Shown one piece after another: positions 11,232 to 34,791 of a stretch of DNA of 49,669 nt. The notes beneath the pieces were generated by a model, which saw nothing but the letters and a program-made list of their open reading frames with translations, was not told where the DNA came from and made no database searches. This DNA is from Eubacteriales bacterium (GTDB lineage Bacteria > Bacillota > Clostridia > Tissierellales > Dethiosulfatibacteraceae). Location: assembly GCA_030694905.1 (NCBI GenBank), contig JAUYTY010000020.1:1-49669 (forward strand). Reading direction: 5' to 3'. The position numbers were made by a program, and so were the translations under genes. Position 1 is the first letter of the stretch. Each line of letters opens with the position of its first letter.

Positions 11232-11240
11232 GGGTTAACC

Positions 11241-13704: not shown

Positions 13705-14751
13705 TCAGTTGATGACTCCCATTTCCCTGTAGTACATTTCCGCACCGGGATGCATTGGCACCATCATATTTTTTGACATGCTTTCTAGCGTTAAATCATT
13801 CAGATTTGCGTGGACAACTCTCATATAGTCCAGATTGTCTCCGATGGCCTTTGTCATTTTGTAAACCGTTTCAACAGAAAGATCCTTGTTTGCACCCAGC
13901 ATTGTAACGGAAGAGAACGCGGCTATATCACGATCAACGAAGCTATATGAGCCTTCAGGAATCATACCCTGACTGTAGCCGTATTTTCCACAAACGAAGT
14001 CAATGGCTTCCTGTTCTATCTCAATAATCGAAAGTTCTTTATTGATTGACACCTCGACAATCCCCGGTGTGGGGACTGATACCACAAAAAACATGGCATT
14101 GACAGTACCGTCAGCGAACATCTGAGCTACCTTATCCACGTTCACATAGTGAAATCTCATACCCCAGCCTTCTAAATCCTCAGTTGTTAATTCATAGGCC
14201 TCCAGCATCCTCTTAAATGCCGTGTGTCCGGAGCCTTCAAAAAGACCTACTGCAATATTCAGCTTCAACTTCTGATCAATAATTTCCCTGAGTGAGGAAA
14301 CGCCAAGGCTTTTATCCAATATCAGCTGAGAACTGGAGGGATAAAAGGAGGCAACACCTCTAATGTTTTCATGCTTTTCATCAAACATTCCAGTTCCTGC
14401 AATAGCTTCGAAGGAAATATTGTTGTGGAGCAACGCGAAATCCGATTCAGCCGCACTAAGTCGAATAGCATTAGAAACAGTATCACCTGGTGTTGTGTGG
14501 AGAACCGAGCCTTTGTAGCTGGTAATGAGGCATTCGGCTATTCCGTTGCTGATCATAAACCAAAGCCCGCTTGGTACGCCCTGTAGCAATGTCGTGGTTA
14601 GAGGTGAGTCATCAATCATGCCAGCTGTAGCAGATGGGTCAAGATCTGTCTGCAGGGTGGTTTCGCTATTGGGTGTGTTACTGCAGGCTGTCAGAATCAG
14701 ACACAGGATCAATAGCATAACTTGTAACCGGGTTGTTTTTTTCGTTTTCAT
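13705..14751 (-). CDS. TAXI-family TRAP solute-binding lipoprotein (copy 1)
   Basis: 348 residues. A lipoprotein signal peptide ends in the lipobox LTAC with Cys23, so the protein is predicted to be lipid-anchored outside the membrane. The body matches the TAXI binding-protein family: PSGLWFMISNGIAECL near the start and HPGAEMYYREMG at the very end. Known role: captures an organic-acid ligand for the fused TRAP permease. It is the last gene of a five-gene leftward operon. The start (AGGAGG, ATG at 14751) lies 74 bp inside the 3' end of the TRAP permease gene, so its signal-peptide codons are read in two frames. Confidence 0.9.
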   Translation of the reverse strand: MKTKKTTRLQVMLLILCLILTACSNTPNSETTLQTDLDPSATAGMIDDSPLTTTLLQGVPSGLWFMISNGIAECLITSYKGSVLHTTPGDTVSNAIRLSAAESDFALLHNNISFEAIAGTGMFDEKHENIRGVASFYPSSSQLILDKSLGVSSLREIIDQKLKLNIAVGLFEGSGHTAFKRMLEAYELTTEDLEGWGMRFHYVNVDKVAQMFADGTVNAMFFVVSVPTPGIVEVSINKELSIIEIEQEAIDFVCGKYGYSQGMIPEGSYSFVDRDIAAFSSVTMLGANKDLSVETVYKMTKAIGDNLDYMRVVHANLNDLTLESMSKNMMVPMHPGAEMYYREMGVIN

Positions 14752-16657
14752 CAGAAACCTCCTTTTGTGTTTTTGAGAGCTTTATCATATTTACATAAAG
14801 TAAGCTAACGACAAGTATCAATCCCGATAACAACACCAGGAAAGGCTTTCCCATTAGAGCAAGGATGGACGCAGCCAAGACTATAGCCCGGGTCAACGAT
14901 TTTATTTCAAAATTGAACCATCGACCCTCAATAGCCGCCGCCAGCAGCACCACACCGAAAAGTGAAGACAAAAATGCAAACCCGATTTCCATGGTTGAGC
15001 CATACATCAGAATTGCCGGATTGAACAAAAGGACATAGGGCAGAACATAGGCGACAGATCCCAACCGCATGGCATAGAAGCCCACCCTCATCGGCGGCGC
15101 GTCAGCGATAGTTGCTGCGGCAAAAGCGGTCAGAGCCACAGGTGGTGTGATGGTGGCCATTGTGGAGAAGAATAGGATGAACATATGGACGGACAATGGC
15201 AAAAAACCCATACGGATCATAATGGGCGCGCAAATGACAGCCGTTATGAGATAGGCGGAGGTAATGTTCATTGCCAGCCCCAAAAACAAAGTGATTCCCA
15301 TGACCAGCACCAAGGTTGCAGTGGCGGAATAGCTGGCCATGGACATGAGATAGGAGCTGAATTTGGCGCTGATACCGGTGATATTGATGATGCCTACCAG
15401 TATACCACAGGTGGCCATAGTGGAAAGGACAATGGCGCCTCTGCCTATGGCGGTTTTCAATATGTCTCCCAACACCGAAAAACGGTAAAGATTTCTTCCG
15501 AGAAAGAGATTGACCGATAGAATGACCACAATCGTCTCCAGTCCAACCCTAGAGGGACTCATACCCGCTGAAAGCCTGAAAACCATAAATGCCAGCGGTA
15601 TATAGAAGCTAGCGCCCTTAATCAGAATCGGTAGGATCGGTTTGATCTGACCCTTTATACCCTTGTCGATGGCTAGTCTTCTTGATTTGAAATCAATGAT
15701 GAAATACAACGAACAATAATAAAGAATAGCTGGCAGCAAGGCTCTTCGCGCTATCTCGCCATAGGGGATACCGACTATATCAGACATGATAAAGGCGACA
15801 GAACCCATTACAGGGGGCATGAAAATGCCGCCGGTGGAGGCGCAGCTTTCAACGGCGGCGGCAAATTCAGGCGAGTAGCCTTTTTCTTTCATGGCAGGTA
15901 TGGTCATGGTGCCGGTGGTTGTGACATTGGACAAAGGCCCGCCGGAGATCATGCCAAAGAGAGCGGAGGACACAACAGCGATTTTAGCCACACCGCCCTG
16001 ACTGGTACCGGCAACCATCGCTGCAAAATCAAAAAGAAAATTTCCCGCGCCTGACGTCAGAAAAAAAGCCCCAAAAATCAGAAAAATCATAATATGGCCT
16101 GAGGCAACGCCAATGGTGCTGCCCCAGATGCCGTAAGTCGATAAAAAAAGACCGTCGGTAATATATTGGATGGAAAAGCCCATATGCCCGAATCTGCCCG
16201 GTATATGCTGGCCAAAGGCTATATAGGCTATAGCTAAAAGGCACAAGCCTGAAAGCCATGGACCGATGACGCGTCGCGTCCCATCAAGGAGTAGAAACAC
16301 TGCCAATACACAAAAAAAGATATCAAGAAAGCTTACAGGATCAACAAAACCTATGCGGCGAACCAGACGCTCCAAATTTATGGCCATATAGAGGCTGACA
16401 GACAGTGAAGCCACCGCCAGACCTAGATCGATTATGGACACCCGACTGCTGTTTTTGGCACTGCCTCCACTGTATGAGAGAAAAATAATGGCAAAAAACA
16501 AGCCAAAGCTAAGGCTTTTATGCAGGAGGGAATCGATATTGACCATGGCGGCGACAATCATATAAAGAGCTGTCAGGATGGCCATTCCATCTCTAAGCAG
16601 CAAGAAATTTCCAGAGAGATTTCTTTTTTTGCTCCCACTCAATAGTTTTTCAGACAT
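14678..16657 (-). CDS. TRAP transporter fused permease (DctQM type, copy 1)
   Basis: 659 residues, almost entirely hydrophobic. The small-subunit part (about 1-150) is fused to the large DctM-type part. Typical large-subunit signatures: FGMISGGPLSNVTTTGTMT, MPPVMGSVAFIMSDIVGIPY, LGLAMNITSAYLITAVICAP and ITPPVALTAFAAATIADAPP. Known role: ion-coupled import of the ligand delivered by the TAXI protein. The start ATG directly follows the A-PCP-TE stop (GGAGGATTAGATG), a tight coupling. The last ~24 residues (from about ENEKNNPV) are hydrophilic and are encoded by the same DNA as the TAXI signal peptide in another frame; the other two TRAP copies lack this tail. Confidence 0.92.
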   Translation of the reverse strand: MSEKLLSGSKKRNLSGNFLLLRDGMAILTALYMIVAAMVNIDSLLHKSLSFGLFFAIIFLSYSGGSAKNSSRVSIIDLGLAVASLSVSLYMAINLERLVRRIGFVDPVSFLDIFFCVLAVFLLLDGTRRVIGPWLSGLCLLAIAYIAFGQHIPGRFGHMGFSIQYITDGLFLSTYGIWGSTIGVASGHIMIFLIFGAFFLTSGAGNFLFDFAAMVAGTSQGGVAKIAVVSSALFGMISGGPLSNVTTTGTMTIPAMKEKGYSPEFAAAVESCASTGGIFMPPVMGSVAFIMSDIVGIPYGEIARRALLPAILYYCSLYFIIDFKSRRLAIDKGIKGQIKPILPILIKGASFYIPLAFMVFRLSAGMSPSRVGLETIVVILSVNLFLGRNLYRFSVLGDILKTAIGRGAIVLSTMATCGILVGIINITGISAKFSSYLMSMASYSATATLVLVMGITLFLGLAMNITSAYLITAVICAPIMIRMGFLPLSVHMFILFFSTMATITPPVALTAFAAATIADAPPMRVGFYAMRLGSVAYVLPYVLLFNPAILMYGSTMEIGFAFLSSLFGVVLLAAAIEGRWFNFEIKSLTRAIVLAASILALMGKPFLVLLSGLILVVSLLYVNMIKLSKTQKEVSDENEKNNPVTSYAIDPVSDSDSLQ

Positions 16658-19228: not shown

Positions 19229-19247
19229 ACCTTACCTCTATTCCTAT

Positions 19248-20249
19248 CTAATCTAAGACGCCGATTTCCCGATAATACATTTCAGCTCCCGGATGCAACG
19301 GGTAGACAGATCCCAAAGGCATCGATCCACCTGTTATGTCCTTGAGAGAAGCATGAACATTTGCCAGGTAATTCAGATTCTCATGTATTGATTTGGTAAC
19401 CTTGTAAACCGTTTCCATGTCAGTATCTGCGGATGTTGCCAGATAGGATGAGTCAGACACGGTATGGATATCATAGTCCTGAAAGCTGTAGGTTCCCGCC
19501 AGCATGGTATATAGACCGTAGCCATGCTGATCCACCAGGACATTTAGCTTTTCAGTGTCAAATTCCAGCAGTAAAAGCGGCGTGCTGACAGCGGTTTCCA
19601 CCACAGGCGGGGCGGGGGATATGGTGAACAGGACCATGGCGTCAATCGCACCGTCGGACAGCATGGCGGATGAGTCGGTTTGACTTTTCGTCAGCATAGC
19701 GCACCCCCAAGCAGACATGTCATCAACAGTCAATCCGTAAGCCTCCAGCAATTTGATAAATGTGCCCTCCGCAGATGAACCAGGTGTGCCGACAGATAGC
19801 CTGATCTTGATTTTGTCGGTTATAATTTCCTCAAAGGTGGTCACACCAAGAGATTCCGATACCACAATCTGAAAGACAGATGGATAAAGGGCTGCAACGG
19901 CTCTCAAATCTTCGGATTTTGAGGCATGCGCCACAGTGTTGTGAATCAGGGCAAATTCCGCTTCCTTGCTGACCAGCCGGCTTATGTTGGAGCTGGAGTT
20001 GCCTGGTGTGATCTGGACGACAGATCCCGGATAGCTGATGCTGACGCATGCGCTTATGCCGCTGGTGATCATATCCCAGACGCCGCCAGGCGAGCCGCTT
20101 AGCATTGAGATGTCGATGGGAGATGTATCAAATGATGTGCCACCGGAAGTCGAAACGGTTGTGCCCGGACTGCTGGGAGCATTGCATGATGATGCGAATA
20201 TGATAACCACGATTAAAATTGCCACAAAATAAACATCAGATCTTTTCAT
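19248..20249 (-). CDS. TAXI-family TRAP solute-binding lipoprotein (copy 2)
   Basis: 333 residues with an N-terminal hydrophobic signal and lipobox ASSC (Cys22). TAXI features: GGVWDMITSGISACV near residue 56, PGNSSSNISRLVS, and the C-terminal HPGAEMYYREIGVLD shared with both other copies. It delivers a ligand to the TRAP permease encoded just upstream; the start (GGAGG, ATG 20249) overlaps the permease stop by 14 bp. The A-PCP-TE gene follows after 19 bp, so this pair belongs to the same transcript. It lacks the stretch equivalent to AGTGMFDEKHENI/AGTGVFETKHDQI seen in copies 1 and 3, a possible specificity difference. Confidence 0.9.
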   Translation of the reverse strand: MKRSDVYFVAILIVVIIFASSCNAPSSPGTTVSTSGGTSFDTSPIDISMLSGSPGGVWDMITSGISACVSISYPGSVVQITPGNSSSNISRLVSKEAEFALIHNTVAHASKSEDLRAVAALYPSVFQIVVSESLGVTTFEEIITDKIKIRLSVGTPGSSAEGTFIKLLEAYGLTVDDMSAWGCAMLTKSQTDSSAMLSDGAIDAMVLFTISPAPPVVETAVSTPLLLLEFDTEKLNVLVDQHGYGLYTMLAGTYSFQDYDIHTVSDSSYLATSADTDMETVYKVTKSIHENLNYLANVHASLKDITGGSMPLGSVYPLHPGAEMYYREIGVLD

Positions 20250-22143
20250 TGATAACCTCCATGGTTTTATGTTGATAATACAGATACACTAAGAGAACAA
20301 CAGCACCCGATGCAGCGGTCAATACAGGCTTCCCCGACAGGGCCAACAGACCAGCGACGGTGATGACGATCCTGTAAACCATATTCACTCTTCTCGAAAA
20401 CCACCAACTCTCCATACCCAGTGCCACAAGCCCCACCCCTATAAAAGCCGACACAAATGAAAACAGGATCTGACCCATCGAGCCGATCAACAGGATGGCG
20501 GGATTGAAGATAAAGACAAATGGCAGAATGTAAGCCACAATACCCATTCGCATAGCCATGAAGCCTACCGCCATGGGAGGCGCATCTGCTATGGTGGCTG
20601 CGGCAAATGAAGTCATGGCAACCGGTGGCGTGATGGTGGCCATGGCAGCAAAAAACAGGATAAACATATGGACGCTGATTGGCACATAACCCAAATTCAC
20701 CAGAATCGGCGCACACATGACAGCCGTAATCAGATAGGCAGAGGTAATATTCATAGCAAGGCCCAGAAACAGGGTGATGAACATGACAAGCATCAAAGTG
20801 ACAATGACAGAGACACTGCCGATTGACATGAGAGAAGAACTGAACTTGGCGGCAATGCCCGTGATGTTGACAACCCCTATCAGGATGCCGCAGGTGCCCA
20901 TAGTCGCCACAATCATGACACCTCTCTCGATAGATAGCTTAAAGGCATCGGAAATCCTGGCCGGATTCATGGGATGCTCCCTGTTCAAGAGATTGATGAA
21001 GATAATAATCCCGATGGATTCAAGCCCCACCCTGGATGGACTGATGCCCATCATGAGCCGGACAATCAGATAGGTCAGAGGCACAAAGAAACCAAAGCCC
21101 TTCTTCAATAGCGGCAGCAACGGTTTTTTATCATCGGGAAACAGGCCTTCGATTCCGATTTTGCGCGACCTGATGTCGATGGTGAAGAACAGCGCCGAGA
21201 AATAGAGCAGTGCAGGGAGAAATGCCATTCTTGCAACCTGGGCGTAAGGTATGCCCACCACCTCAGCCATCATAAAGGCCACTGAGCCCATGATGGGAGG
21301 CATGAAGACCCCGCCGACAGAGGAACAGCTCTCGACCGCAGCTGAAAAAACACTGGAATATCCCCGCTTTTTCATGGCCGGGATGGTCAAGGCTCCCGTG
21401 GTGGAGACATTGGCGATGGGACTGCCTGAAATCATCCCGAACAGAGCCGATGATACGATGGCTATCTTGGCCACACCACCCTTGCTGGAACCGGCAATGG
21501 CCGAAACAAAATCAAAGAGAAAATCACCTGCTCCTGATTTCAGGAAGAGACAGCCGTAAATCAGAAATATCATGATGTGGCCCGTTGCGATTCCAAGTGT
21601 GCTTCCCCATATGCCGTAATTGGAGAGAAACAGGCCGTCAACGGTATATAGCAGACTAAAACCCCTGTGGCCGAATTTACCCGGTATCAGGTGTCCGGAA
21701 AACATATACAGAAGTGCCAGCAGGCTAAGGGCAGGCAGCCATGGACCCAATACCCGCCTGGTTCCCTCGATGAGCAGGATGACAGTCAGGATTCCAAAAA
21801 AAACATCAGAGTCCAAAACCCTGTCAAGATAGCCATGGCGTTGAATCATCCGATCAAGATTCAGAGAGATATAGAGACTGACGCTGACAGAGGCCAGCGC
21901 AAGGAGCCAGTCATAAAATGGAACGCCATGGGTTCTTTTTGAGCCCGGTGACGCATAGCTTATGAAGATAATCGCAAAGAATGCACCAAGGCAGATGCTT
22001 CTGTGAAGCAATGGCTCAGGATAGAAAAGAACTGCCGCCATGAGATAGATGGCAATCGATATGGAAAGAATGTTCCTAGCCTTAAGAACGTTTTTGGGCA
22101 GTTGTCTTTTAATGCCGTTTTGCGTCAATGCAGTAAGCATCAT
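20236..22143 (-). CDS. TRAP transporter fused permease (DctQM type, copy 2)
   Basis: 635 residues, a full-length fused permease. Motifs parallel copy 1: FGMISGSPIANVSTTGALT, MPPIMGSVAFMMAEVVGIPY, LGLAMNITSAYLITAVMCAP and ITPPVAMTSFAAATIADAPP. Predicted ion-driven importer in the cytoplasmic membrane. It is the first gene of the five-gene operon; GAGGATAAA precedes ATG 22143, and a perfect-consensus promoter stands at 22227-22255. Having a second transporter ahead of a single A-PCP-TE gene suggests two imported substrates or a later insertion of one pair. Confidence 0.92.
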   Translation of the reverse strand: MMLTALTQNGIKRQLPKNVLKARNILSISIAIYLMAAVLFYPEPLLHRSICLGAFFAIIFISYASPGSKRTHGVPFYDWLLALASVSVSLYISLNLDRMIQRHGYLDRVLDSDVFFGILTVILLIEGTRRVLGPWLPALSLLALLYMFSGHLIPGKFGHRGFSLLYTVDGLFLSNYGIWGSTLGIATGHIMIFLIYGCLFLKSGAGDFLFDFVSAIAGSSKGGVAKIAIVSSALFGMISGSPIANVSTTGALTIPAMKKRGYSSVFSAAVESCSSVGGVFMPPIMGSVAFMMAEVVGIPYAQVARMAFLPALLYFSALFFTIDIRSRKIGIEGLFPDDKKPLLPLLKKGFGFFVPLTYLIVRLMMGISPSRVGLESIGIIIFINLLNREHPMNPARISDAFKLSIERGVMIVATMGTCGILIGVVNITGIAAKFSSSLMSIGSVSVIVTLMLVMFITLFLGLAMNITSAYLITAVMCAPILVNLGYVPISVHMFILFFAAMATITPPVAMTSFAAATIADAPPMAVGFMAMRMGIVAYILPFVFIFNPAILLIGSMGQILFSFVSAFIGVGLVALGMESWWFSRRVNMVYRIVITVAGLLALSGKPVLTAASGAVVLLVYLYYQHKTMEVINEKI

Positions 22144-22226
22144 TTTATCCTCTTTTTCATCAATACAACAATAATTACATTTATCCGATGACTAACAGTG
22201 CTAAGACCCCCACTCTGTTAATATTG

Positions 22227-22255
22227 ATTATACGGCAACATTTTTTAAGTGTCAA
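22227..22255 (-). promoter_or_regulatory. Consensus sigma-A promoter of the TRAP/TAXI/A-PCP-TE operon
   Basis: On the minus strand: TTGACA, 17-base spacer, TATAAT. The T-run before the -35 and the start (CTTAAAA) and end (CG) of the spacer are the same as in the manC promoter at 8729-8757, suggesting a shared origin or shared control. Confidence 0.85.
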
Positions 22256-22286
22256 AAAAATTCTGTCATTGTTTTTCGCGGACTTA

Positions 22287-22295: not shown

Positions 22296-22324
22296 GATTG
22301 TAAAAATGACAAGGACCACATCGG

Positions 22325-23641
22325 ATGAATACCATCGAGACATTTGAACGGCTTTTCCCTTTAAACAGAAGCATCACAGGAAACGGTCTGAGGCAATCCC
22401 TGAGCATCATCGGCGAGCATATTCCGCTGAATATGATTGAGTATCCCACAGGCATGTCCTGTTTCGATTGGGAGATCCCTAAGGAATGGAATGTCAAAGA
22501 GGCCTGGCTGGAAGACATGGAAGGCAACCGAATCATCGACTTTGCCGACTGCAACCTTCATCTGCTGGGCTACAGCATACCGTTTCAGGGAGTGATAAGA
22601 AGAGAGGAGCTGCTGCCTCATCTTTATACGCTAAAGGATATGCCTGGCGCAATCCCCTACGTGACATCCTTTTACGAGGAAAGATGGGGTTTTTGTGTGC
22701 CCTATAACATATTCGAAAGCCTCGACCGATCACACTACAGGGTGCATATTGATACAGAGCTGAAACCCGGCAGCCTTACCATCGGAGAAGGCTATCTAAG
22801 AGGCAGGTCAAAACAGGAAGTCCTGCTTCACACCTACATAGGACATCCCTCTATGGCCAATGACCAGCTTTCAGGCCCTTTGACGCTGATGATGGCCTGC
22901 AAATGGCTGCTGGATCACCAAGATAGTCTCAACTTCAGCTACAGGATATTGTTCTGTCCGGAAACCATTGGGACCATCGCCTATCTGAGCCAAAATATCG
23001 AGCATTTGAAATCACATCTGATTGCGGGTTATGTGGTGGCATTCACTGGAGACAGGGGACAGCTGACCTTTAAAATGTCCAAAGACAAAAATTCCCTTGC
23101 CAATAGGGCAGCCCTGAATATTTTGAAAACCGGACATAGAGAGCACCAAATCATGCCATACACACCCTACGGAGCCGACGAGCGCCAGTTCAACTCGCCG
23201 GGCATCAATCTGGAGACGGCAGCCATCATGCGTTCCGGTCCCGGCCGGTACAAAGAATACCACACATCCCTTGACAACAGGGATATCCTATCGGAGGAGA
23301 GCATCAAAGACAGCGCAGGGTTTCTCATTGAGATCATAAAGAACATAGAGGCCAACACAGCCATCAGCCCTATCCACACCATGTGCGAGCCCAAGCTGGA
23401 CAAGAGAGGACTCTATACAACCCTTGGCAAAAACGGAGAGGACAAGTCATTGGGCAGGCAGATTCTGGCCATCTGGGGATTGTCCGACAATCACGATGAC
23501 CTTATAGCCATAGCGGATACCTTGCAGGTTCCGGCTTACAGCTTAAATCAAGCACTTCACAAAGCAACAGAAGCAGGCATCATTAGAACCGAAAGGGAGA
23601 GCGAACATGATACTAAGAGCAAAGAACAAAACCCTGTTTGA
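22325..23641 (+). CDS. DUF4910 M28-like aminopeptidase-fold protein
   Basis: 438 residues. It matches the DUF4910/DUF2172 'aminopeptidase-like' proteins found in polysaccharide loci. Candidate zinc ligands in M28 order: His174 and Asp180 in GHPSMANDQLSG, Glu213 in CPETIGT, an acidic residue in GADERQF (285-286) and His313 in EYHTSLDN. The N-terminal ~150 residues hold the inserted beta domain; residues ~370-430 look like a winged helix. No signal peptide, so cytosolic. The family's reaction is not established; hydrolysis or formation of an amide on a sugar or peptide is plausible (inference). It opens the rightward operon and overlaps the radical SAM gene by 35 bp. Confidence 0.8.
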   Translation: MNTIETFERLFPLNRSITGNGLRQSLSIIGEHIPLNMIEYPTGMSCFDWEIPKEWNVKEAWLEDMEGNRIIDFADCNLHLLGYSIPFQGVIRREELLPHLYTLKDMPGAIPYVTSFYEERWGFCVPYNIFESLDRSHYRVHIDTELKPGSLTIGEGYLRGRSKQEVLLHTYIGHPSMANDQLSGPLTLMMACKWLLDHQDSLNFSYRILFCPETIGTIAYLSQNIEHLKSHLIAGYVVAFTGDRGQLTFKMSKDKNSLANRAALNILKTGHREHQIMPYTPYGADERQFNSPGINLETAAIMRSGPGRYKEYHTSLDNRDILSEESIKDSAGFLIEIIKNIEANTAISPIHTMCEPKLDKRGLYTTLGKNGEDKSLGRQILAIWGLSDNHDDLIAIADTLQVPAYSLNQALHKATEAGIIRTERESEHDTKSKEQNPV

Positions 23642-24719: not shown

Positions 24720-24736
24720 ATGTTGAAGGGTAAAAC

Positions 24737-25825
24737 ATGCTCACAAACTCAGAATTCGCCAAACAGGATTTTCTAACCGATGACAGTCATTTCGGGCAAG
24801 CCGGACATATCAGATCCGTACTGGTCAAAGGCGATGAAAATGTTAAGCCTTTTATTTCCATAGCCATCCCGACCTATAAAAGGGCACATCTGCTAAAGGA
24901 AGCTATAGAGAGCTGCCTCAACCAGAAGGATTACCGGGACTTCAATATCGTCATCACGGACAATGACCCGACCAGAGGCAACGAAACGGAGGGCGTCATT
25001 GAGAATATCCACTCAGACAAGATCCTCTACTACAAGAATGAAGAGAACATAGGGGCTCTGGCCAACTTCAACCGCTGCATCGAGATGTCCACAGGCAAAT
25101 ATGCCGTCATGCTCAACACCGACGACCTTCTGGCTGATGATTATCTTAAGAAATTGAATGGGTTGCTGGTAAGATATCCAACTGCCGATGTGATGCTACC
25201 GGATATTGATATAGAAATAGACGGCAAGATCAAGAGACAGAAGGCCTATCAAAGCCTCATGCGGAAAATCTCAAGATTTGCCGACCTTGACCGGACAGCC
25301 ATCAGGCTCAACATAAACGACTTCATCCTGTACAACCCTGCAGGCTCGCCATCGGGGGTTGCCTACAGACGGGAATCATTCTTGGCATCTCAGGGATTCA
25401 ATCCCAAATGGCACCCGACAGGAGACAAGGTCCTATACATCAACCTAAGCCTAAAGAATCAGGTGTATCTGACAAGCATCAATGCAGGGAGATACAGATT
25501 CCTTGACAATATAACCCAGGAGTCGGGGATGCGCACCCTGTTTGTTTCCCAGGGAATCCATATCAACCGGTACCTGTCGAAAAGGCTCAACAAGAAATGG
25601 ATCAACCGATACTACAAAGGAGCAACCTACTATCGGTTGAACAGGCCTTCAAACAAGAAATTCGGGATCGAACCGGACAAGGAATCAATAAACGGGCTGT
25701 TTGAAACACAGCCAAATATCCTTGATTTCATGTTTTTTTCACTGATTTGGCTGATAGCTCTCAAATGTTGGTTTTTCAGAGTATTGGCCGCGGCATTCAG
25801 AACCTATTTGCGAGGTGCTAAATGA
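24737..25825 (+). CDS. GT2-family glycosyltransferase
   Basis: 362 residues. After a ~38-residue N-terminal extension comes FISIAIPTYKR, then ITDNDPTRGNE, NFNRCIEMSTGKY and a DXD-like NTDDLL. The same arrangement is found in the GT2 at 1882-2967, so they are paralogues of one subfamily. The hydrophobic segment near the C-terminus (FMFFSLIWLIALKCWFF) may attach it to the membrane. It follows the radical SAM gene by 17 bp and overlaps the guanylyltransferase gene by four bases (ATGA). Sugar specificity unknown. Confidence 0.88.
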   Translation: MLTNSEFAKQDFLTDDSHFGQAGHIRSVLVKGDENVKPFISIAIPTYKRAHLLKEAIESCLNQKDYRDFNIVITDNDPTRGNETEGVIENIHSDKILYYKNEENIGALANFNRCIEMSTGKYAVMLNTDDLLADDYLKKLNGLLVRYPTADVMLPDIDIEIDGKIKRQKAYQSLMRKISRFADLDRTAIRLNINDFILYNPAGSPSGVAYRRESFLASQGFNPKWHPTGDKVLYINLSLKNQVYLTSINAGRYRFLDNITQESGMRTLFVSQGIHINRYLSKRLNKKWINRYYKGATYYRLNRPSNKKFGIEPDKESINGLFETQPNILDFMFFSLIWLIALKCWFFRVLAAAFRTYLRGAK

Positions 25826-26898
25826 AGACATTCGGCGTCATCATGGCTGGCGGAAACGGTACACGGCTTTGGCCTTTAAGCAGAGAAAACAACCCCAAGC
25901 AGACCATCACACACTTCGGCGAGAAAACACTTCTCGAAAACACCATCGATAGGATAGAGGGTCTTTTTGCCGATGAACGGATCTATATCTCCATCAACCA
26001 CAAGCATCTTGAAAGGACAATGGCTATACTGCATCCATATGGACGGGAGTTCGAGATCATCTCTCAGCCTTACAATAGGAACAACGCGCCGTTTATCCTG
26101 TTCATCGCCTTGAAGATCATAAAGCGATACGGCAATGGGGTGATGTGCCTCCTGCCTTCGGACCATCTGATCCGAGATCCGGAGCCTTACAGAAAGGACT
26201 TATCCAAAGCCATTGAATATGTGATTGAAAATGATAGGATCGTCGCTATCGGGACACAACCTGACTATCCGGCTGAGATATACGGCTACATCCGGCTCGA
26301 TGACAGCCAAGAGGGTGACATGAAGCCTGTGAAGGAATTCAAGGAGAAGCCTGCCTATGACCTTGCCAGAGCCTATCTGGACAGCGGTGACTATCTTTGG
26401 AATTCGGGCGTGTACGTCTGGACAGCCACCAAGGTGGTAACCTGCTATCAGAGATATCTGCCAAAAATCTACAACACCTTGGCACCGGTTATCCCCCATA
26501 TCGATACAGACAGCGAGGAATCAGCGCTGCGCCAGCTTTACAGGGAGGTGCAGGACATCTCCATCGACCACGGCATCATGGAGCAGACAGACCAGCTCTA
26601 TGCCATGGCAGGCAGCTTCCAATGGATTGACGTGGGAAGCTATGACTCCCTGATCAACCTATATGGCAGTGATGAAAACGGCAACGTGGCAAAGGGTCGC
26701 CACATTGGCCTGGACTCAAGAAACAATATCATCTTTTCCGAAAAAACAACAGTCGCCACTGTCGGTTTAGAGGATACCATTGTTGTGGCAATGGATGACA
26801 TCATACTGATCTGCAAAAAAGAACACACCTCCCATATCAGGCACCTTGTAGACAAGATCAGGCAAGAGGGTCATGGAGATATGATGGATTTGCTATAG
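25822..26898 (+). CDS. Mannose-1-phosphate guanylyltransferase, single domain
   Basis: 358 residues, matching the guanylyltransferase part alone, without the PMI cupin of the manC-like gene at 7304-8692. The pyrophosphorylase signature is MAGGNGTRLWPLS with NPKQ (residues 9-25), LPSDH lies near 112-116, and FKEKP (about 173-177) is the sugar-phosphate loop. Reaction: mannose-1-P plus GTP to GDP-mannose and PPi. ATGA overlap with the preceding GT2 and 25 bp to the methyltransferase gene put it in one operon. Activity on another hexose-1-phosphate is possible, since two homologues occur in one locus. Confidence 0.85.
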   Translation: MKTFGVIMAGGNGTRLWPLSRENNPKQTITHFGEKTLLENTIDRIEGLFADERIYISINHKHLERTMAILHPYGREFEIISQPYNRNNAPFILFIALKIIKRYGNGVMCLLPSDHLIRDPEPYRKDLSKAIEYVIENDRIVAIGTQPDYPAEIYGYIRLDDSQEGDMKPVKEFKEKPAYDLARAYLDSGDYLWNSGVYVWTATKVVTCYQRYLPKIYNTLAPVIPHIDTDSEESALRQLYREVQDISIDHGIMEQTDQLYAMAGSFQWIDVGSYDSLINLYGSDENGNVAKGRHIGLDSRNNIIFSEKTTVATVGLEDTIVVAMDDIILICKKEHTSHIRHLVDKIRQEGHGDMMDLL

Positions 26899-26923
26899 AA
26901 TAAAGATAAGAGGGGAAACTACC

Positions 26924-28138
26924 ATGCCTCAATGCAGACACTGCGGCACAGAAAACGACATATTCCTATCATTGGGAAGCCTGCCACCGGCAAACACATT
27001 CCTGAAAGAGGGAGAGACCGCCCGGACATTGCCCCTCAATGTGTTCTTCTGCGCCAAATGCACATTGATGCAGCTGGAGGATGTGGAAAAGCCGGAGAAC
27101 ATCTTCAACGATGACTTCAAGTATTTCAGCTCCTATTCCTCATCCCTGATCGGGCACAGCAGGGAATACTGCAATATGGTCATCCAGAGGCTGTCCCTGA
27201 AAAAGAGTGACGCCATAGTGGAAATAGCCAGCAATGACGGATATCTGCTCGATATTTTCCGAAAAATAGGATACAATAACTTATTGGGAGTAGAGCCCTC
27301 CGGCTCCGTGGCCAAAGAGGCCATAAGCAAAGGCATTCCCACAGAAATCAGGTTTTTCAACGATGAAACAGCTAAAGAGCTGTCAGCAAGAGGCAAGGCG
27401 GACCTGATCATAGCCAACAACGTCATGGCCCATGTGCCGGATATCAACAGCTTTGCCTCTGGTATCGCCACCCTTCTGAAAAAGGACGGCACCGCGACCG
27501 TCGAGTTTCAGTATGTGGCTGATCTTCTGGCAAAAAACGCCTTTGACATGATCTACCATGAGCATTTCTCTTATCTGTCACTCCATGCCATGGACAGCAT
27601 CATGAAGAGCAACGGACTATTTATTTACGATGTGGAACGGCTGAAGACACAGGGAGGTTCGCTCCGTGTGTACGCCGCTAAAATAGGATCAAAACGGCAA
27701 AAAACCGGCAATATCGAAAGAATGCTCGACCGGGAAAAAGCCATCGGAATAGACAAACAATCGACCTACAGCAAATTTGCAAGGCATGCAAACGACAAAA
27801 AGCAGCAGGGTCTGGATTATCTTAGGGGCATCAAAGAAGCCGGCAAAACCATCGCCTGCTACGGGGCGGCGGCCAAGGGGAGTACCTTTCTCAATTACCT
27901 CGGTATAGACGACGGAACGGTGGATTACGTGGTGGACCGGAACACAGAGAAGCAGGGGCTTTACATGGCAGGATGCGGTTTGAAGGTCTACCCCACCGGA
28001 CACCTGTCCGTCACGAGGCCGGATTATGTATGGATATTGCCCTGGAACATCAGGGATGAGATTATTTCGGAGCATGGGACTGTCAGAGGCTGGGGCGGAA
28101 AGTTCCTGGTGATGGTGCCGGAAATTGATGTCATATGA
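26924..28138 (+). CDS. SAM-dependent sugar C-methyltransferase (NDP-hexose C-methyltransferase family)
   Basis: 404 residues with the three-part layout of this family. Residues 1-60 hold a zinc-binding module with Cys4, Cys7, Cys43 and Cys46 (CRHC...CAKC). The middle carries a Rossmann SAM domain with EIASNDGYLL (about 100) and GVEPSG. The C-terminal domain has CYGAAAKGSTFLNY (about 316-329) and GWGGKFLVMVPE at the end. Family members methylate carbon atoms of keto-deoxy sugar nucleotides, giving branched or methylated deoxysugars. This predicts an unusual sugar in the glycan (inference). The start of the next gene is 20 bp downstream. Confidence 0.87.
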   Translation: MPQCRHCGTENDIFLSLGSLPPANTFLKEGETARTLPLNVFFCAKCTLMQLEDVEKPENIFNDDFKYFSSYSSSLIGHSREYCNMVIQRLSLKKSDAIVEIASNDGYLLDIFRKIGYNNLLGVEPSGSVAKEAISKGIPTEIRFFNDETAKELSARGKADLIIANNVMAHVPDINSFASGIATLLKKDGTATVEFQYVADLLAKNAFDMIYHEHFSYLSLHAMDSIMKSNGLFIYDVERLKTQGGSLRVYAAKIGSKRQKTGNIERMLDREKAIGIDKQSTYSKFARHANDKKQQGLDYLRGIKEAGKTIACYGAAAKGSTFLNYLGIDDGTVDYVVDRNTEKQGLYMAGCGLKVYPTGHLSVTRPDYVWILPWNIRDEIISEHGTVRGWGGKFLVMVPEIDVI

Positions 28139-28157
28139 AACGAAAGGAAACAGGCAG

Positions 28158-29279
28158 ATGGTCATAATGGATATCCTGTCAACCAATCAGGGAGCCTACA
28201 GGCTTGTGAAAAACAGAGCCAGAATCATCAACCAAACCCACACAAACTATATTGTGTGCCCGGAGGGTGAATTCACCCAAAGCATTATCGACTCCGGAGC
28301 GCCTGTCATTTCCTATGATATCAAACGGGAGCTGGGCCTTTCCACCATGAAAGAGATTATGGCCCTTCTCAGAATACTGAAGGAATACAATCCGGATGTG
28401 GTGCACTCCCATAATTCCAAGACAGGCGCCATCACCCGCATGGCCGCTTATCTATATAACAAAAGGAACAAAAGGAAAATCCTGGTGATCCATCAGGTCC
28501 ACGGCTATTATTTCAACGGTGTTTCAGGACTGAAAGGCACTATCTATAAAACGATAGAAAAACTGCTGGCTCGGTTCACCGATGTATTGCTGTTCCAGAA
28601 CCTGACGGAGCTTGCCATGTCCCGTGGCATGAAAATGGACCGGCACGCGAGACTGGAATACATCGCAAACGGCATCAGCTTTGATGAGTTCGAGGGCGTC
28701 AGAAGGAATCAGCCAGATGGCGGCAATGTATTCAACATGCTTACCATCGCAAGGATAGAGCGGGTCAAGAATCAGCAGCAGATCATTGACGGACTGAATC
28801 TATTGGTAAATCTGCAGAACAGAAAAAATATCATGCTTTATCTCATAGGCGAGCAGAGCAACGACTACCATCAGGAAATAACCCAACAGATCCGCCGATA
28901 TCATCTGGAGAATCACGTCACATTCACAGGCATGCTGGATCGGGAAGCGCTCATGGGCTATTTCTCAAGGGGAGATCTGTCGGTTTTGACATCCATCAAG
29001 GAGGGAAAACCCAGAGCCATCATGGAGAGCCTTTATGTGGGCATTCCCTGTATCGGGACCGATGTGACGGGGACCAACGAGGTGATCATAAATGATTTAA
29101 ACGGCTACCTGATTCCACTAAATGATGCCAGCGCCCTGGCGGACAGGATCGCCCAACTTATGGACAACCCCGAGACAAGAAATAGGCTGTCTCAGAATGC
29201 GACAGCCTATGCCAAAGAGCACTTCGATGAAAGGCAAGTGATTGCCAGACTATTGGAATTGTATGAAGGCAATTTTTAG
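28158..29279 (+). CDS. GT4-family glycosyltransferase
   Basis: 373 residues from the ATG at 28158, chosen because AAAGGA lies 9 bases upstream; an in-frame TTG at 28125 would overlap the preceding gene. The N-terminal domain contains VVHSHNSKTGAI and HQVHGYYFNGV. The donor domain has IARIERVKNQQQIIDGL and ends with SIKEGKPRAIMESLYVGIP and GTDVTGTNEVI, the usual GT4 retaining-enzyme motifs. It is the last gene of the rightward operon. Its stop overlaps the end of the convergent TAXI gene (TTAG), so the 3' ends of the two messages are antisense to each other. Confidence 0.87.
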   Translation: MVIMDILSTNQGAYRLVKNRARIINQTHTNYIVCPEGEFTQSIIDSGAPVISYDIKRELGLSTMKEIMALLRILKEYNPDVVHSHNSKTGAITRMAAYLYNKRNKRKILVIHQVHGYYFNGVSGLKGTIYKTIEKLLARFTDVLLFQNLTELAMSRGMKMDRHARLEYIANGISFDEFEGVRRNQPDGGNVFNMLTIARIERVKNQQQIIDGLNLLVNLQNRKNIMLYLIGEQSNDYHQEITQQIRRYHLENHVTFTGMLDREALMGYFSRGDLSVLTSIKEGKPRAIMESLYVGIPCIGTDVTGTNEVIINDLNGYLIPLNDASALADRIAQLMDNPETRNRLSQNATAYAKEHFDERQVIARLLELYEGNF

Positions 29280-30301
29280 TCAATCAGACCCATTTCCCTG
29301 TAATACATCTCTGCTCCGGGATGCATGGGGATACCCAGATCCTCGATCATCGATTCCAGTGTCATCTCCTTTAGTGCAACATGGATGCTTTTCATGTAAT
29401 CCATGTTTTCATGGATTGACTTGACCGTCTTATAGACAACCTCATCCGGCGTGTCGATGGAGGCGCCCAGAATGGTGACCGATGATACGGAGACCGAATC
29501 GTCTGTCATAAATTCATAGGTGCCGGCAGATACTGTACGCACATTATAGCCATATTCCTCGCTGAGCTTCGCAATTATATCCCTGTCAAACTCTACAAAA
29601 ACCAACTTTTTATTGATTGAAGCCTCAACTACAGATGGAGAAGGGGCGAGGGTTAAAATGAGATAGCCATCAATCATACCATCGGACAGCATTTTTGATG
29701 AATCGCTCTGGCTTTTATTATAGATGGTACACCCCCAACCCTTCATGTCCTCAAGGGTCAAGCCATATAGCGCCAGCATCCTTTCAAAGGCTTCTGAAGT
29801 GGCGCCTCCGGGATTTCCGATAGATAACCTGACTCTGATTTTATTGTCTATGATGTCATTTAAGCTTCTTGCGCCAACGCTTTCCAGAACGACCATCTGA
29901 AGCACCGATGGGTAGAAGGATGCGACAGATCTGATCTGATCATGCTTTGTCTCAAATACACCGGTCCCTGCATAGCCCTCTGAAGCCACATTGTTATGAA
30001 GCAGTGCAAACTGGGTATCCCCCGCATTCAGTCGCATCACATTTGAATGGGTGTTGCCGGGAGTGAGTTGGATAATGGAGCCCTTGTAAGAAAAATTCAG
30101 GCATTCGCTGACGCCATTTCCAATCATATACCACACACTGCCCGGTGTGCTGATCAGCAAGGTTGTATCCACAGGTGAGCTGTCAAAAGAACCGGATTTG
30201 CTACTATCAGTTGGGTCTGCATCCTGGGTGTTACAGGAAGCCAATACAAGCACGCCGGTCAATATTGACAATAATAGAATTGCAATTTGGTTTTTCCTCA
30301 T
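29276..30301 (-). CDS. TAXI-family TRAP solute-binding lipoprotein (copy 3)
   Basis: 341 residues with a signal peptide ending in LASC (Cys23). TAXI hallmarks: TPGSVWYMIGNGVSECL, LTPGNTHSNVMRLNAG and the C-terminal HPGAEMYYREMGLID. It resembles copy 1 more than copy 2 in one region (AGTGVFETKHDQI against AGTGMFDEKHENI). GGAGG stands 7 bases before the ATG, which overlaps the TRAP permease stop by four bases (ATGA). Together with the permease and A-PCP-TE genes upstream it forms the second complete cassette. Confidence 0.9.
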   Translation of the reverse strand: MRKNQIAILLLSILTGVLVLASCNTQDADPTDSSKSGSFDSSPVDTTLLISTPGSVWYMIGNGVSECLNFSYKGSIIQLTPGNTHSNVMRLNAGDTQFALLHNNVASEGYAGTGVFETKHDQIRSVASFYPSVLQMVVLESVGARSLNDIIDNKIRVRLSIGNPGGATSEAFERMLALYGLTLEDMKGWGCTIYNKSQSDSSKMLSDGMIDGYLILTLAPSPSVVEASINKKLVFVEFDRDIIAKLSEEYGYNVRTVSAGTYEFMTDDSVSVSSVTILGASIDTPDEVVYKTVKSIHENMDYMKSIHVALKEMTLESMIEDLGIPMHPGAEMYYREMGLID

Positions 30302-32217
30302 CGTTTTTCCTCCAGAATATCGTAATCTTTATTTGTGACAGTCTTATTCCGATTAAACAGGTACAATAGGATTATCATAGACATTGCAGCTCCTTTCAAG
30401 GTTATATTGCTCGACATGACCAGGACACCGGAAATCACCACGGCAATCCGTTCAAAAGCGTTCAAACCGGTGTGATGCCACCAGCCTTCCTTTCCAATTG
30501 TAATCCAGTAGATTCCAATAAAGGCGAAAACAAATGTGATGGCAGATTGCAGATTTGAATTGGCCATCAGAATAGAAGGATTGAAAATAAAGACGTAAGG
30601 CAGGATATAGGCCACCAGGCCTATTTTTATTGCCAAAATGCTGACCTTGAGAGACGATACATCCGCAATGGTGGCGGCAGTGAAAGCCGTAATCGCCACT
30701 GGAGGTGTGATGGTGGCTGTAGTCGCATAGTATAAAATGAACATGTGAACGCTAAGCGGCTCAAATCCGAATCGAATCAGCACAGGCGCACAGATGACAG
30801 CGGTTAGCAGATAGGCTGAGCTGCCACTGGTCGAGGTGCCGATGAAAACAGTAATCAGCATAACAAATACAAGCGTCAGGATTATTGAAAAGCTGGTCAG
30901 GTCCATCAGAAACGAGCTGAATTTGGAGGAAATGCCGGTGATATGGATCACCCCAATAAAAATGCCACAGGTTCCCATGGTAGCCACAAGTACCAGACCC
31001 TTCTCTACTGCAGATCGAACAGCTCCATAGAACTTACGGGGAGTAAGACGATGGCGCTTGTTGAAAAGCGTCAGAACCAGAACAATCAAAATGGATTGGA
31101 TGCCCACCATGGCGATGCTGACTCCAGACATCATCCTGAAAATCAGAAATCCAAGAGGGATGAAAAAATTGTAACCGCTCTTCAGCAACGGCAGCAACGG
31201 CTTTCTATCCTCCAAGGGCAGTCCGGGTAGATTCAGTTTATCGGACTTGATGCTGATGGTAAAGAACAGTGCGGAAAAATAGAGAATTGCAGGCATCAAT
31301 GCCCCTTTGGCGACCTCCCTGTAAGGGATACCGACCACATCCGACATGATAAACGCGATGGATCCCATAATCGGAGGTGTGAAAACCCCGCCGATTGAGG
31401 CGCAGCATTCGACTGCGGCAGCGAATTCTCCGGAATAGCCTCTTTTTTTCATTGCCGGAATGGTCACGGAACCGGTGGTGGATACGTTTGAGACGGGTCC
31501 ACCGGATATCATGCCGAACAGAGCGGAGGTGATGATGGCAACCTTGGCCAGACCGCCCTTGGTTGAGCCAGCTACAGAAGAAGCAAAGTCAAACAGAAAA
31601 TCCCCGGCACCGGATCGGACAAAAAACGCACCAAACATGAGAATAATGATGACATGTCCGGTGGCGGTGCCGATGGTGCTGCCCCATATGGCGTAATTTG
31701 TCATAAAAAGACCCTCAATCGTCTGGGAAAAGGTAAAGCCATTATGCCCGAATCGACCCGGTATGAGATGCCCGGACAACATATACAGTATTGAAAACAG
31801 GCTAATCATGGTCAACCAAGGGCCTATAACTCGGCGGGTCCCCTCCAGAAGAAGCAGGATGGTGAGAATACCGAAAAACAAATCGATCGGCAGCAATGGC
31901 GTGACAAAGACAAATCGGTTTATAATCCGGTCGATATTGACGGCGAAATAGGCACTGACGGATAAAGCAAGCAAAGCCAGACATATGTCATAGAAAGGAA
32001 CCGAATCTTTGCTGTGAGATCCGGGGGATGTATAGCTTAAAAAAATGATGGCGAAAAAAAGACCAAAGCTCAGGCTTCTGTGGAGCAACGGTTCGGGATA
32101 GATAAAGGAAGCGAGAACAATATACAAGGCAGTCAGTCCGATCAGGAACCCCTGAATCAGCCTATAACCGGATGTCAGGTTTCGTTTGTCTCCTTTTGAA
32201 AACAGGTATTCTCTCAT
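30298..32217 (-). CDS. TRAP transporter fused permease (DctQM type, copy 3)
   Basis: 639 residues. The DctM signatures are conserved (FGMISGGPVSNVSTTGSVT, TPPIMGSIAFIMSDVVGIPY, ITPPVAITAFTAATIADV). However, the segment that reads LGLAMNITSAYLITA in copies 1 and 2 reads IGTSTSGSSAYLLTA here. Since this region lies in the DctM transport core, a different ligand or ion coupling is possible (inference). The start codon follows the A-PCP-TE stop immediately (GGAGGATTAGATG), exactly as in cassette 1. Confidence 0.92.
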   Translation of the reverse strand: MREYLFSKGDKRNLTSGYRLIQGFLIGLTALYIVLASFIYPEPLLHRSLSFGLFFAIIFLSYTSPGSHSKDSVPFYDICLALLALSVSAYFAVNIDRIINRFVFVTPLLPIDLFFGILTILLLLEGTRRVIGPWLTMISLFSILYMLSGHLIPGRFGHNGFTFSQTIEGLFMTNYAIWGSTIGTATGHVIIILMFGAFFVRSGAGDFLFDFASSVAGSTKGGLAKVAIITSALFGMISGGPVSNVSTTGSVTIPAMKKRGYSGEFAAAVECCASIGGVFTPPIMGSIAFIMSDVVGIPYREVAKGALMPAILYFSALFFTISIKSDKLNLPGLPLEDRKPLLPLLKSGYNFFIPLGFLIFRMMSGVSIAMVGIQSILIVLVLTLFNKRHRLTPRKFYGAVRSAVEKGLVLVATMGTCGIFIGVIHITGISSKFSSFLMDLTSFSIILTLVFVMLITVFIGTSTSGSSAYLLTAVICAPVLIRFGFEPLSVHMFILYYATTATITPPVAITAFTAATIADVSSLKVSILAIKIGLVAYILPYVFIFNPSILMANSNLQSAITFVFAFIGIYWITIGKEGWWHHTGLNAFERIAVVISGVLVMSSNITLKGAAMSMIILLYLFNRNKTVTNKDYDILEEKR

Positions 32218-34791
32218 CTAATCCTCCATGATTTCAGTCAGCTTCTGTGCCAGAAATTTTGAATTTTCCTCGTTGTTGATCTCCGTATGCCTGCAGGGCA
32301 TATCGACAGCTACCAGTTCGCCAATCAACTGGCGCCATAAGTCATGGGAAGAGATGCTCTTGACCCTGTCTTTTTTAGAAGTGAAATAATGGACCCTTCC
32401 ATCATAATACGTCGGTCTGTAAAGACTATAAGCGCAGGCAAGTATGGAGGATTTTCCCACCAGGCTTATACACCTGGTGTCAGAACGCCTGCAGGCTTTA
32501 TGGTACATGACTTTTCCCAGTTTCAACCTCATCAGCTGAAGGGAGGTTGATATTTTCTTAAACAGCAGGGGAACAGCATTTTTGAGGGAATGGCCGGACA
32601 GCTCGTTGACGCTGTTGATGACGAGCCGCTTGAATTTATTGCCGCTCTCGCTGTTTCTGTAGGTCGAATCAAACATAGCCAAGGTCGAAACAACATGCCC
32701 ACGGCCTGTCAGCTCTTTTGCCACAGCCAATGCCAAAACGCCCCCCAGACAAGTGCCGCACAAATGATAGGGTCCATCCGGAAATAGACCTGTCATTTCA
32801 TCGGCATAAGACCGAGCCAACTGCTCAAAGGTGATAGGATGAACGAAGCCTGGGTGACGGCTGTCAAATCTGAGGGCATAGACAGGCCTATCAGATGGCA
32901 TGAATCTGCCCAGATTGTGGTAGGTCACAGCCTCACCATCACCTGTGTGGATGCAGAACAATGGCGCCAGACTCCCTGAGGGCTTGATCGGGACGATAAA
33001 TTCCGGCAATCGGCTAATTATTGAGGCGTTATCAACCAGCTGGGATAGATTGGCCATGGAGCCGTCCTTGAAGAATGGGGCGAAGGGGATCTGTACGCCA
33101 AAGGTGTCCTCAATCTCGCTGAAAAGCGCAGCCGCAGACAAAGAATCACCGCCAAGATCAAAGAATGAGTAATCCGGATTGATGTGTTCTATATTCAGTA
33201 CCCTACGCCAGATTTCCAGGAGCTTGCTCTGGGTACCGGTTAAGGACACATCATCGGCAGTTGCGCTCTGTTCCATTGAAATCAAGGTTTCACAGGCATT
33301 GGGATAGTCTTGGACAAGGGTATCGTAAAGGGATTTACGCTGGATTTTCCCACCGGGTCCAACTGGAATCCCGTCAACCACAAACAGCAACGATGGCAGC
33401 TTGTAGGCGTCCATGCGGTGATAAAGAAGCTTTCTCAGGGCAAGGAGGCTGGTAGCATAGCCCTGTCGCATCACAACAGCAACTCCCACATCCTCACTGC
33501 CGTAGGGGTTGGGATATGGGAAAGCCACAGCATCTTGAAAGTCGGGATTCGATAGGATCGCCTTCTCCAGCTCGTAGGGCGATACCTTCTCGCCACCCCT
33601 GTTGATCATTTCCTTGATCCGTCCTGTTATGAAGATGTAGCCATCCTCATCCACATAGCCCATATCACCGGTTCTGAACCAGCCATCGGAAAAATAGTCC
33701 CGATTGTTATCCGGATCATTCTCGTAGCCGGAAAAGACACTAGGTCCACTGACCAGCAATTCACCATCCAGAATTCTAACCGACGATCCTGTGGATACGC
33801 CAACTGAACCCTCCTTGTAGCCCTTTGGAGCCTTATAGGTGCTAGCGATGTTTTTGGTTTCGGTCATGCCATAGCTCTGAACAACAGGCACATGAAACAA
33901 TTCCTCAAGACGTTCCTTCAGCTGTTTGGTCAGCGGTGCTCCGGTGGCACGGATATAGGATAGGGAACGGTGCGGTATTACTAGTCCGTTTTTCTCGGCA
34001 TAGTCAGCCAGCGACACCAATACGGCGGGGCTCAGCGCAAATGAAGTGACTGGCAGGCCATTCAGGATATCGATAAGCTCGTTATGCTTGAATCCGTTGC
34101 TGATGACAGCACTTCCACCCGCTAACAAAGACCTCAGCATGATACTGACCGAATTGATTCTGGACATCTTTGTCAGGATGAGGTTCATGGTATTTTCATT
34201 ATAGCCATAATGGCTGACAACGATTCTAATGGAATGTAGGAGGCTATCATAGGTGGAGGGCACAATTTTAGGCGTGCTTGTAGTGCCTGAAGTTGTCAGT
34301 ACCATTGCAATATCATCTGCATTGACACACGATTCCGATGGTTTGAATGAAGGCAATTGGATCATATTGAAATCAAATCGCCATTTATCATGTACAATGG
34401 TTCTCTCAAAGGCGATGATTCCCAGGCCCTCCCGCTTTGCCGCTTGGTATCCATGGCCTTCAGGACGGTCTGTCAATATATGGTCGACCTTAAGCAGACG
34501 GTAAAAATAAGCCAATCTGTCTTCGCTCAAGTCAAAATCAACAGGAACCAGCACCGCATTTTCAATGACAGGGAGTGACAGAAGCCCTAGACTCATTCCG
34601 TCCGAGGACAGGACAGCTATTCTATCGGTCCGTTTCATGGAGGAGCGCTCAAAAAAATCGGTTACCTGACAATAGATCGTCTCAAAATCATGATATGTAG
34701 CGCCGGAACCATCAGGATTCAATAGAGCCAGCTTGTCGGGATTTTTAGCGGCATGTTCGAAAATGACCCTGGAGATATGATTTCTTGCCAT
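32218..34791 (-). CDS. A-PCP-TE synthetase (adenylation, carrier, Cys-thioesterase), copy 2
   Basis: 857 residues from the ATG at 34791, preceded by GAGGAG at 6 bases; an upstream ATG at 34812 would put that site inside the gene. The domains are collinear with copy 1: P-loop TTSGTTSTPK (166-175), YGMTETK, TGDMGYVDEDGYIFITGR, catalytic Lys482 in GGKIQRKSL, carrier Ser550 in DLGGDSL, thioesterase elbow CGTCLGG with Cys681, Asp708 in MFDSTY and His835 in PCRHTEI. It is therefore an intact paralogue, not a remnant. The adenylation substrate segments between the P-loop and YGMTETK differ more (TASPAVLNSL against ALSPAVLVSL; RSSGAPL against RATGAPL), so substrate preference may differ. First gene of a three-gene operon. 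Predicted cytosolic acyl or aminoacyl activation and transfer. Confidence 0.88.
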   Translation of the reverse strand: MARNHISRVIFEHAAKNPDKLALLNPDGSGATYHDFETIYCQVTDFFERSSMKRTDRIAVLSSDGMSLGLLSLPVIENAVLVPVDFDLSEDRLAYFYRLLKVDHILTDRPEGHGYQAAKREGLGIIAFERTIVHDKWRFDFNMIQLPSFKPSESCVNADDIAMVLTTSGTTSTPKIVPSTYDSLLHSIRIVVSHYGYNENTMNLILTKMSRINSVSIMLRSLLAGGSAVISNGFKHNELIDILNGLPVTSFALSPAVLVSLADYAEKNGLVIPHRSLSYIRATGAPLTKQLKERLEELFHVPVVQSYGMTETKNIASTYKAPKGYKEGSVGVSTGSSVRILDGELLVSGPSVFSGYENDPDNNRDYFSDGWFRTGDMGYVDEDGYIFITGRIKEMINRGGEKVSPYELEKAILSNPDFQDAVAFPYPNPYGSEDVGVAVVMRQGYATSLLALRKLLYHRMDAYKLPSLLFVVDGIPVGPGGKIQRKSLYDTLVQDYPNACETLISMEQSATADDVSLTGTQSKLLEIWRRVLNIEHINPDYSFFDLGGDSLSAAALFSEIEDTFGVQIPFAPFFKDGSMANLSQLVDNASIISRLPEFIVPIKPSGSLAPLFCIHTGDGEAVTYHNLGRFMPSDRPVYALRFDSRHPGFVHPITFEQLARSYADEMTGLFPDGPYHLCGTCLGGVLALAVAKELTGRGHVVSTLAMFDSTYRNSESGNKFKRLVINSVNELSGHSLKNAVPLLFKKISTSLQLMRLKLGKVMYHKACRRSDTRCISLVGKSSILACAYSLYRPTYYDGRVHYFTSKKDRVKSISSHDLWRQLIGELVAVDMPCRHTEINNEENSKFLAQKLTEIMED

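Follow-up and report, generated by a model that had tools for sequence, protein, structure and literature searches.

Why does a bacterial surface-glycan locus carry free-standing adenylation, peptidyl carrier protein and thioesterase (A-PCP-TE) proteins whose genes abut those of TAXI-TRAP transporters? The question is raised by contig JAUYTY010000020.1 (C217) of the Eubacteriales bacterium assembly GCA_030694905.1 (Dethiosulfatibacteraceae), a genome of 2.8 Mb in 221 contigs; the stretch analysed here, called the window, is this entire contig of 49,669 nucleotides. A first-pass annotation of the window had proposed an import-activate-transfer system in which an imported carboxylate is loaded and passed on, perhaps to the glycan. 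The reading that we favor, with a probability of roughly 45%, is that an acid would be imported and adenylated, then loaded onto the PCP for transfer by the TE, with a glycan as acceptor in the glycan loci. The import and activation half, taken by itself, is likely.

The cassettes form two operons on the minus strand. Operon 1 has the order TRAP2, TAXI2, A-PCP-TE1, TRAP1 and TAXI1: it begins with fused TRAP permease 2 (20236-22143; PF06808) and TAXI binding lipoprotein 2 (19248-20249; PF16868, TIGR02122), followed by A-PCP-TE protein 1 with a Cys-type TE (P0001, 16658-19228; PF00501 + PF00550 + PF00975), directly after it fused TRAP permease 1 (14678-16657; PF06808, TIGR02123), and TAXI binding lipoprotein 1 (13705-14751; PF16868, TIGR02122). 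Operon 2 consists of A-PCP-TE protein 2 (P0002, 32218-34791; PF00501 + PF00550 + PF00975), directly followed by fused DctQM TRAP permease 3 (30298-32217; PF06808), and TAXI binding lipoprotein 3 (29276-30301; PF16868, TIGR02122). All parts were identified with Pfam and NCBIfam above curated cut-offs, TIGR02123 being tried on the permease of TRAP 1 (491.2 bits, cut-off 320.65); TIGR02122 gave 160.8 and 170.1 bits (cut-off 84.35), and in a genome scan all three window TAXIs exceeded this cut-off. Read directly, each TAXI has a lipobox-like Cys near its N-terminus (LTAC, ASSC, LASC). The A-PCP-TE and TRAP genes are spaced by 0 bp in both operons, the TRAP and TAXI genes overlap by 4, 14 and 74 bp (4 bp for TRAP 3/TAXI 3) and 19 bp separate TAXI2 from A-PCP-TE1. 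Domain assignments and coordinates thus bear out the first-pass annotation as to two leftward operons with zero or overlapping spacing, and as to a third TRAP-TAXI pair ahead of A-PCP-TE copy 1. The longest open reading frame of A-PCP-TE 2 begins at 34812; the start at 34791 is preferred because GAGGAG lies just upstream of that ATG and homologues begin at the aligned residue. A promoter/terminator scan gave no signal above that of shuffled sequences. Elsewhere in the genome no AMP-binding protein reached the family cut-off, and therefore both A domains of this genome sit in cassettes. The G+C content of the cassette region (13705-34812) is about 0.48, compared with 0.39-0.41 in the sampled remainder of the genome and 0.41 in the right flank, which fits lateral acquisition.

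What kind of enzyme is encoded? A, T (PCP) and TE domains follow each other with no condensation (C) domain, the layout of A-T-TE synthetases, which resemble non-ribosomal peptide synthetases (NRPS). Motifs A3, A8 and A10 (Lys), the GGDS of the PCP and the Cys-Asp-His of the TE are all intact; in P0002 (numbered from 34812) the basic A4 residue is R218, the PCP serine Ser557 and the TE triad C688-D715-H842. An AlphaFold model of protein 2 (mean predicted local distance difference test 83.5, predicted template modelling score 0.55) supports the three-domain layout, with low interdomain confidence. Taken whole, the protein is similar to EntF-type terminal modules; the A domain is closest by profile, and as a single domain also by fold, to oxalyl-CoA synthetases and 4-coumarate-CoA ligases (4CL). 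It belongs to the acyl-CoA ligase subgroup (oxalyl-CoA, 4CL, MenE type): its best stand-alone matches are oxalyl-CoA synthetases, at scores below every curated NCBIfam cut-off, and its fusion to a PCP and a TE sets it apart from stand-alone CoA-dependent ligases. In an alignment to 5ie0 the amino-binding Asp is absent, the clade having I, L, G, M, T or N there, and at A4 an invariant Arg/Lys replaces the His of ligases; all full-length clade members were scored, including one linked to an SLC13-type transporter. A canonical amino-acid NRPS module was rejected on the absence of both the C domain and the A4 Asp. Across the transporter-linked family the nucleophile is Cys in 10/10 TEs, alongside conserved Asp and His; in the SLC13-linked relative it is Ser. 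A Cys nucleophile is shared with the NRPS thioesterases SulM and ObiF1, which make new bonds instead of hydrolysing (PMC11298585); unlike these, the cassette TE stands outside a peptide assembly line and has the motif CG(T/N/H/Y)CxGG in most members.

Is the linkage peculiar to this contig? A homologue search in relatives returned one close A-PCP-TE (46% identity), in the Tissierellales metagenome-assembled genome JAFGVC (isolate ZodW_Metabat.12; G004), where it runs into a TRAP gene and adjoins Wzx. A thioesterase profile run over 391 genomes of the class and 398 of the phylum (789 in total) yielded G164, G191, G215 and G655. A scan of genome contigs with two A-domain peptide patterns did not have G191 and G655 among its matches and hence is not exhaustive; the scans cover a sample of genomes, and the cassette-bearing ones are partly metagenome-assembled, others fragmented. 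The A-PCP-TE/TRAP/TAXI unit is present in six genomes from two classes, the window genome and five others; the first-pass annotation had named absence of the linkage from all other genomes as a refutation, and this does not apply. In G004, G164, G191, G215 (three contigs) and G655 an A-PCP-TE or A gene is followed by TRAP and then TAXI wherever the contig extends that far. Chance adjacency was rejected on the strength of this linkage being kept across diverged loci (A-PCP-TE about 40-49% identical).

The loci vary in detail. The G004 permease, to which window permease 2 is closest (67%), is followed by a 656-residue protein built of two TAXI units (L023 6774-8744; L021 11257-13227), of which the second has no signal peptide of its own. 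The G164 cassette has two TAXIs. On one G215 contig (C77; L025 4519-5691) an additional free-standing PCP-TE separates A-PCP-TE from TRAP, and another (C116; L163 3204-4841) has an A-only gene ahead of TRAP-TAXI; lying beside cassette permeases, the two might act in trans. G655, of a different class, has a split A and PCP-TE pair beside the cassette. In G750 (C100; L141 14-4037) the gene after a more distant Ser-type A-PCP-TE relative encodes an SLC13-type anion transporter (PF00939), an independent pairing of enzyme and transporter. Tblastn against plasmids returned distant matches alone, mostly NRPS-type, and no transporter lay beside the Gemmobacter match of that search. Bauldia and Akkermansiaceae also have A-PCP(-TE) proteins (L027, L028), which were set aside as a separate, more distant family. 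As to the duplication that the first-pass annotation had seen, two copies are present and they are not recent duplicates: they are 47% identical to each other and 45-49% identical to a homologue in another genus. Since their mutual identity is no higher than that, they are old paralogues; recent tandem duplication was rejected on the 47% identity and a surrounding tree that leaves the branching of the window copies relative to G004 and G655 unresolved.

The transporters form a subfamily of their own. In a search of the 789 genomes with a profile built from cassette permeases, the cassette TRAPs scored 910-1105 bits and all others at most 479, except those of G827 (752) and G549 (568). All ten cassette permeases (three in the window, three in G215 and one each in G004, G164, G191 and G655) have an A-PCP-TE, PCP-TE or A gene next to them, and no A-PCP-TE was near the next-best-scoring permeases at four loci inspected. 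Against the genome's other TAXI-TRAP systems the cassette TRAP clade had support of 100/100 and the TAXI clade 100/99; the G827 permease is the sister of the former, and the latter includes the two TAXIs of G827 and G549. These nearest outside relatives have an Lrp-type regulator and a VdcC-type UbiD at one end and a UbiX prenyltransferase at the opposite end (L161, G827:C56, 7200-13093; L162, G549:C158, 5959-12365, with an added PAC_bac-family gene). Both are likely operons for aromatic-acid uptake and decarboxylation, unlinked to A-PCP-TE; UbiD substrates are mostly aromatic or unsaturated acids.

The binding pocket gives a hint of the ligand. Glutamate-binding TAXIs rely chiefly on Tyr45 and Gln93, and Glu125 joins these two in contacting the amino group (PMC11574862). 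At these positions the cassette TAXIs have GVW in place of GVY (Phe once), His in place of Q93 (Leu once) and Ser in place of E125 in all; with mostly Trp, His and Ser they fall outside the glutamate type, glutamate transport is disfavoured, and the two UbiD-linked TAXIs carry the same changes. From these residues and the UbiD setting of the relatives we infer that the ligand lacks an alpha-amino group and is plausibly aromatic or dicarboxylic; a TAXI-TRAP importing o-phthalate has been described (PMC13040137). The predicted structure of TAXI3 has good confidence (87.8). The cassette shares TIGR02122/TIGR02123 membership, a binding lipoprotein and a fused DctQM permease with VcGluPQM, TTHA1157 and the o-phthalate system of denitrifiers, but it is a distinct clade, has lost the residues binding glutamate's amino group and is linked to A-PCP-TE. 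Should the transporter instead bring in the acyl acceptor, or reclaim a finished product, the presence of two TAXIs per A-PCP-TE at several loci (window operon 1, the fused tandem of G004, G164) could serve two ligands; the fact that TAXI and A domain have lost their amino-acid determinants in a matching way, and the pairing of the enzyme family with two transporter classes typical of acids, TRAP and SLC13, speak against this, and we consider it quite improbable.

Could the imported acid simply be consumed? It would then be activated for breakdown, with CoA or a different thiol receiving the acyl group from the PCP-TE. This would suit the UbiD/UbiX decarboxylases beside the outgroup transporters, the A-only gene in G215:C116 and the surroundings of another TAXI-TRAP system of the source genome (G000:C190, L105), where the next genes look like those of an HMG-CoA-synthase, a thiolase and a CaiB-type CoA transferase. 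For such a route, however, a simple CoA ligase would do, leaving PCP and TE superfluous; the cassette has no recurring catabolic neighbour, and it lies beside wzx and glycosyltransferases, so that assimilation is distinctly unlikely.

The setting would suit a role at the cell surface. In the window the cassettes are embedded in a glycan locus with several glycosyltransferases, two ManC-like genes, a GDP-mannose-dehydratase-like epimerase, a FlaA1-type dehydratase, an initiating transferase and Wzx. Upstream of operon 2 lie a conserved protein of no assigned family (34960-35688, plus strand; 47% in G004), a Wzx-type flippase (35706-37199, plus strand; homologues in G004 at 63% and G655 at 48%), an initiating sugar-phosphate transferase (37190-38506, minus strand; PF02397) and a FlaA1/CapD-type nucleotide-sugar dehydratase/epimerase (38707-40605, plus strand; 64% in G004). 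FlaA1, GT4, Wzx and the initiating transferase of the G004 locus are 52-64% identical to their window counterparts. The Wzx homologue adjoins the cassette in G004 and the split A and PCP-TE genes in G655, which lie in a polysaccharide locus; behind the G191 cassette come a sulfotransferase gene and one for a TupA-like ATP-grasp protein. Four loci (window, G004, G655, G191) have a glycan setting, and at three of them the cassette or its split cognate adjoins wzx. The annotated window genes include no separate acyltransferase family, and the scanned window proteins include neither Dlt-type D-alanylation parts (separate DltC carrier, DltB MBOAT) nor lic1-type decoration genes (LicA kinase, LicC, LicD).

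The same genes bear on whether the product is a secreted metabolite independent of the glycan, made by a Cys-TE that condenses or dimerises the loaded acid or attaches it to a small acceptor, in the manner of A-T-TE quinone and furanone synthetases. The domain order is that of fungal synthetases whose TE couples two aromatic alpha-keto acids (PMC9047271). The fungal enzymes (polyporic acid, atromentin, furanones) are likewise free-standing and have no C domain; by contrast, the cassette enzyme is bacterial, linked to an importer and nearest to oxalyl-CoA synthetase in its A domain. The UbiD-linked relatives of the transporter hint at an aromatic substrate, and two loci lack glycan genes. Yet the four polysaccharide loci come from two classes, with three adjoining wzx, and no tailoring genes recur alongside the cassette; we regard such a synthase as rather unlikely.

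How would the favored system of import, activation and transfer to a glycan work? The cassette-specific TAXI-TRAP would import a carboxylic acid without an alpha-amino group, possibly aromatic or dicarboxylic, which the A domain would adenylate and load as a thioester onto the PCP fused to it. From there the Cys-type TE would take up the acyl group and transfer it to an acceptor, in place of simple hydrolysis. In glycan loci this acceptor would most likely be a cytoplasmic sugar or lipid-linked repeat unit, prior to export by the adjacent Wzx flippase, and the end product would be an acylated surface polysaccharide. Import and activation as one unit, the first part of the earlier proposal, are well supported because the gene order is kept in six genomes, the transporter clades are cassette-specific and descend together with the enzyme, and amino-acid determinants are lost in TAXI and A domain alike. 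The second part, transfer onto the glycan, is argued for only by location: a glycan acceptor is plausible because four loci are glycan loci and three abut wzx. Three observations weigh against the whole. The A domain of G215:C116 has no PCP-TE, so that the three-domain form is not always in cis; no glycan genes were found at G164 and G215:C116 in the available sequence; and the sole phosphopantetheinyl transferase found in the genome is AcpS-type, so that activation of the PCP is not assured. This AcpS (G000:C24; L103 642-1934) is apparently fused to an NnrD-like domain. A narrower version, in which a dedicated TAXI-TRAP scavenges an aromatic or dicarboxylic acid, one A-PCP-TE protein carries it, the Cys-thioesterase of that protein serves as acyltransferase and esterifies or amidates a polysaccharide repeat unit, and several paralogous cassettes add different acids, is tentative and on balance doubtful.

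The logic of import, activation and decoration has precedents. In lic1 phosphorylcholine decoration, permease, activation and transfer genes put an imported small molecule on a surface glycan, with different enzymes and chemistry (choline and phosphotransfer, whereas the cassette would use a carboxylate thioester). In Haemophilus, TRAP import of sialic acid by SiaPQM feeds decoration of lipooligosaccharide, a comparable idea that uses a TRAP of the DctP type and a sugar acid, activated with CMP and attached by a sialyltransferase. Our literature searches found no published description of A-PCP-TE combined with TAXI-TRAP, in agreement with the first-pass annotation.

Other genes of the window were read in passing. 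An inter-cassette operon on the plus strand (22325-29279) encodes DUF4910/DUF2172, radical SAM-SPASM, GT2, ManC-like, C-methyltransferase and GT4 proteins; the first two genes overlap (22325-24719), and the nearest model for the radical SAM-SPASM protein, a tungsten-cofactor maturase, scores far under its cut-off. The protein at 34960-35688, kept beside the cassette in two genera, has no Pfam match and looks by eye like a ParB/sulfiredoxin-like fold (GNGNHRLA motif). Consecutive DUF362, PqqD, HprK-related kinase, GT2 and NTP_transf_5 genes occupy 8815-13695, and a short protein at 48678-49301 combines a winged helix-turn-helix with a PglD_N/Methyltransf_14-like C-terminal part.

Known TAXI ligands are few, and the TAXI-TRAP subfamily delimited by the cassette is predicted to take a non-amino ligand that may be aromatic. 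The small putative Cys-TE acyltransferase is a candidate one-protein acylation tool. If the proposed system is real, carboxylic acids from the environment would feed straight into cell-surface chemistry via assembly-line enzymology, and the cassette would be a genomic marker for acylated glycans of uncultured Clostridia.

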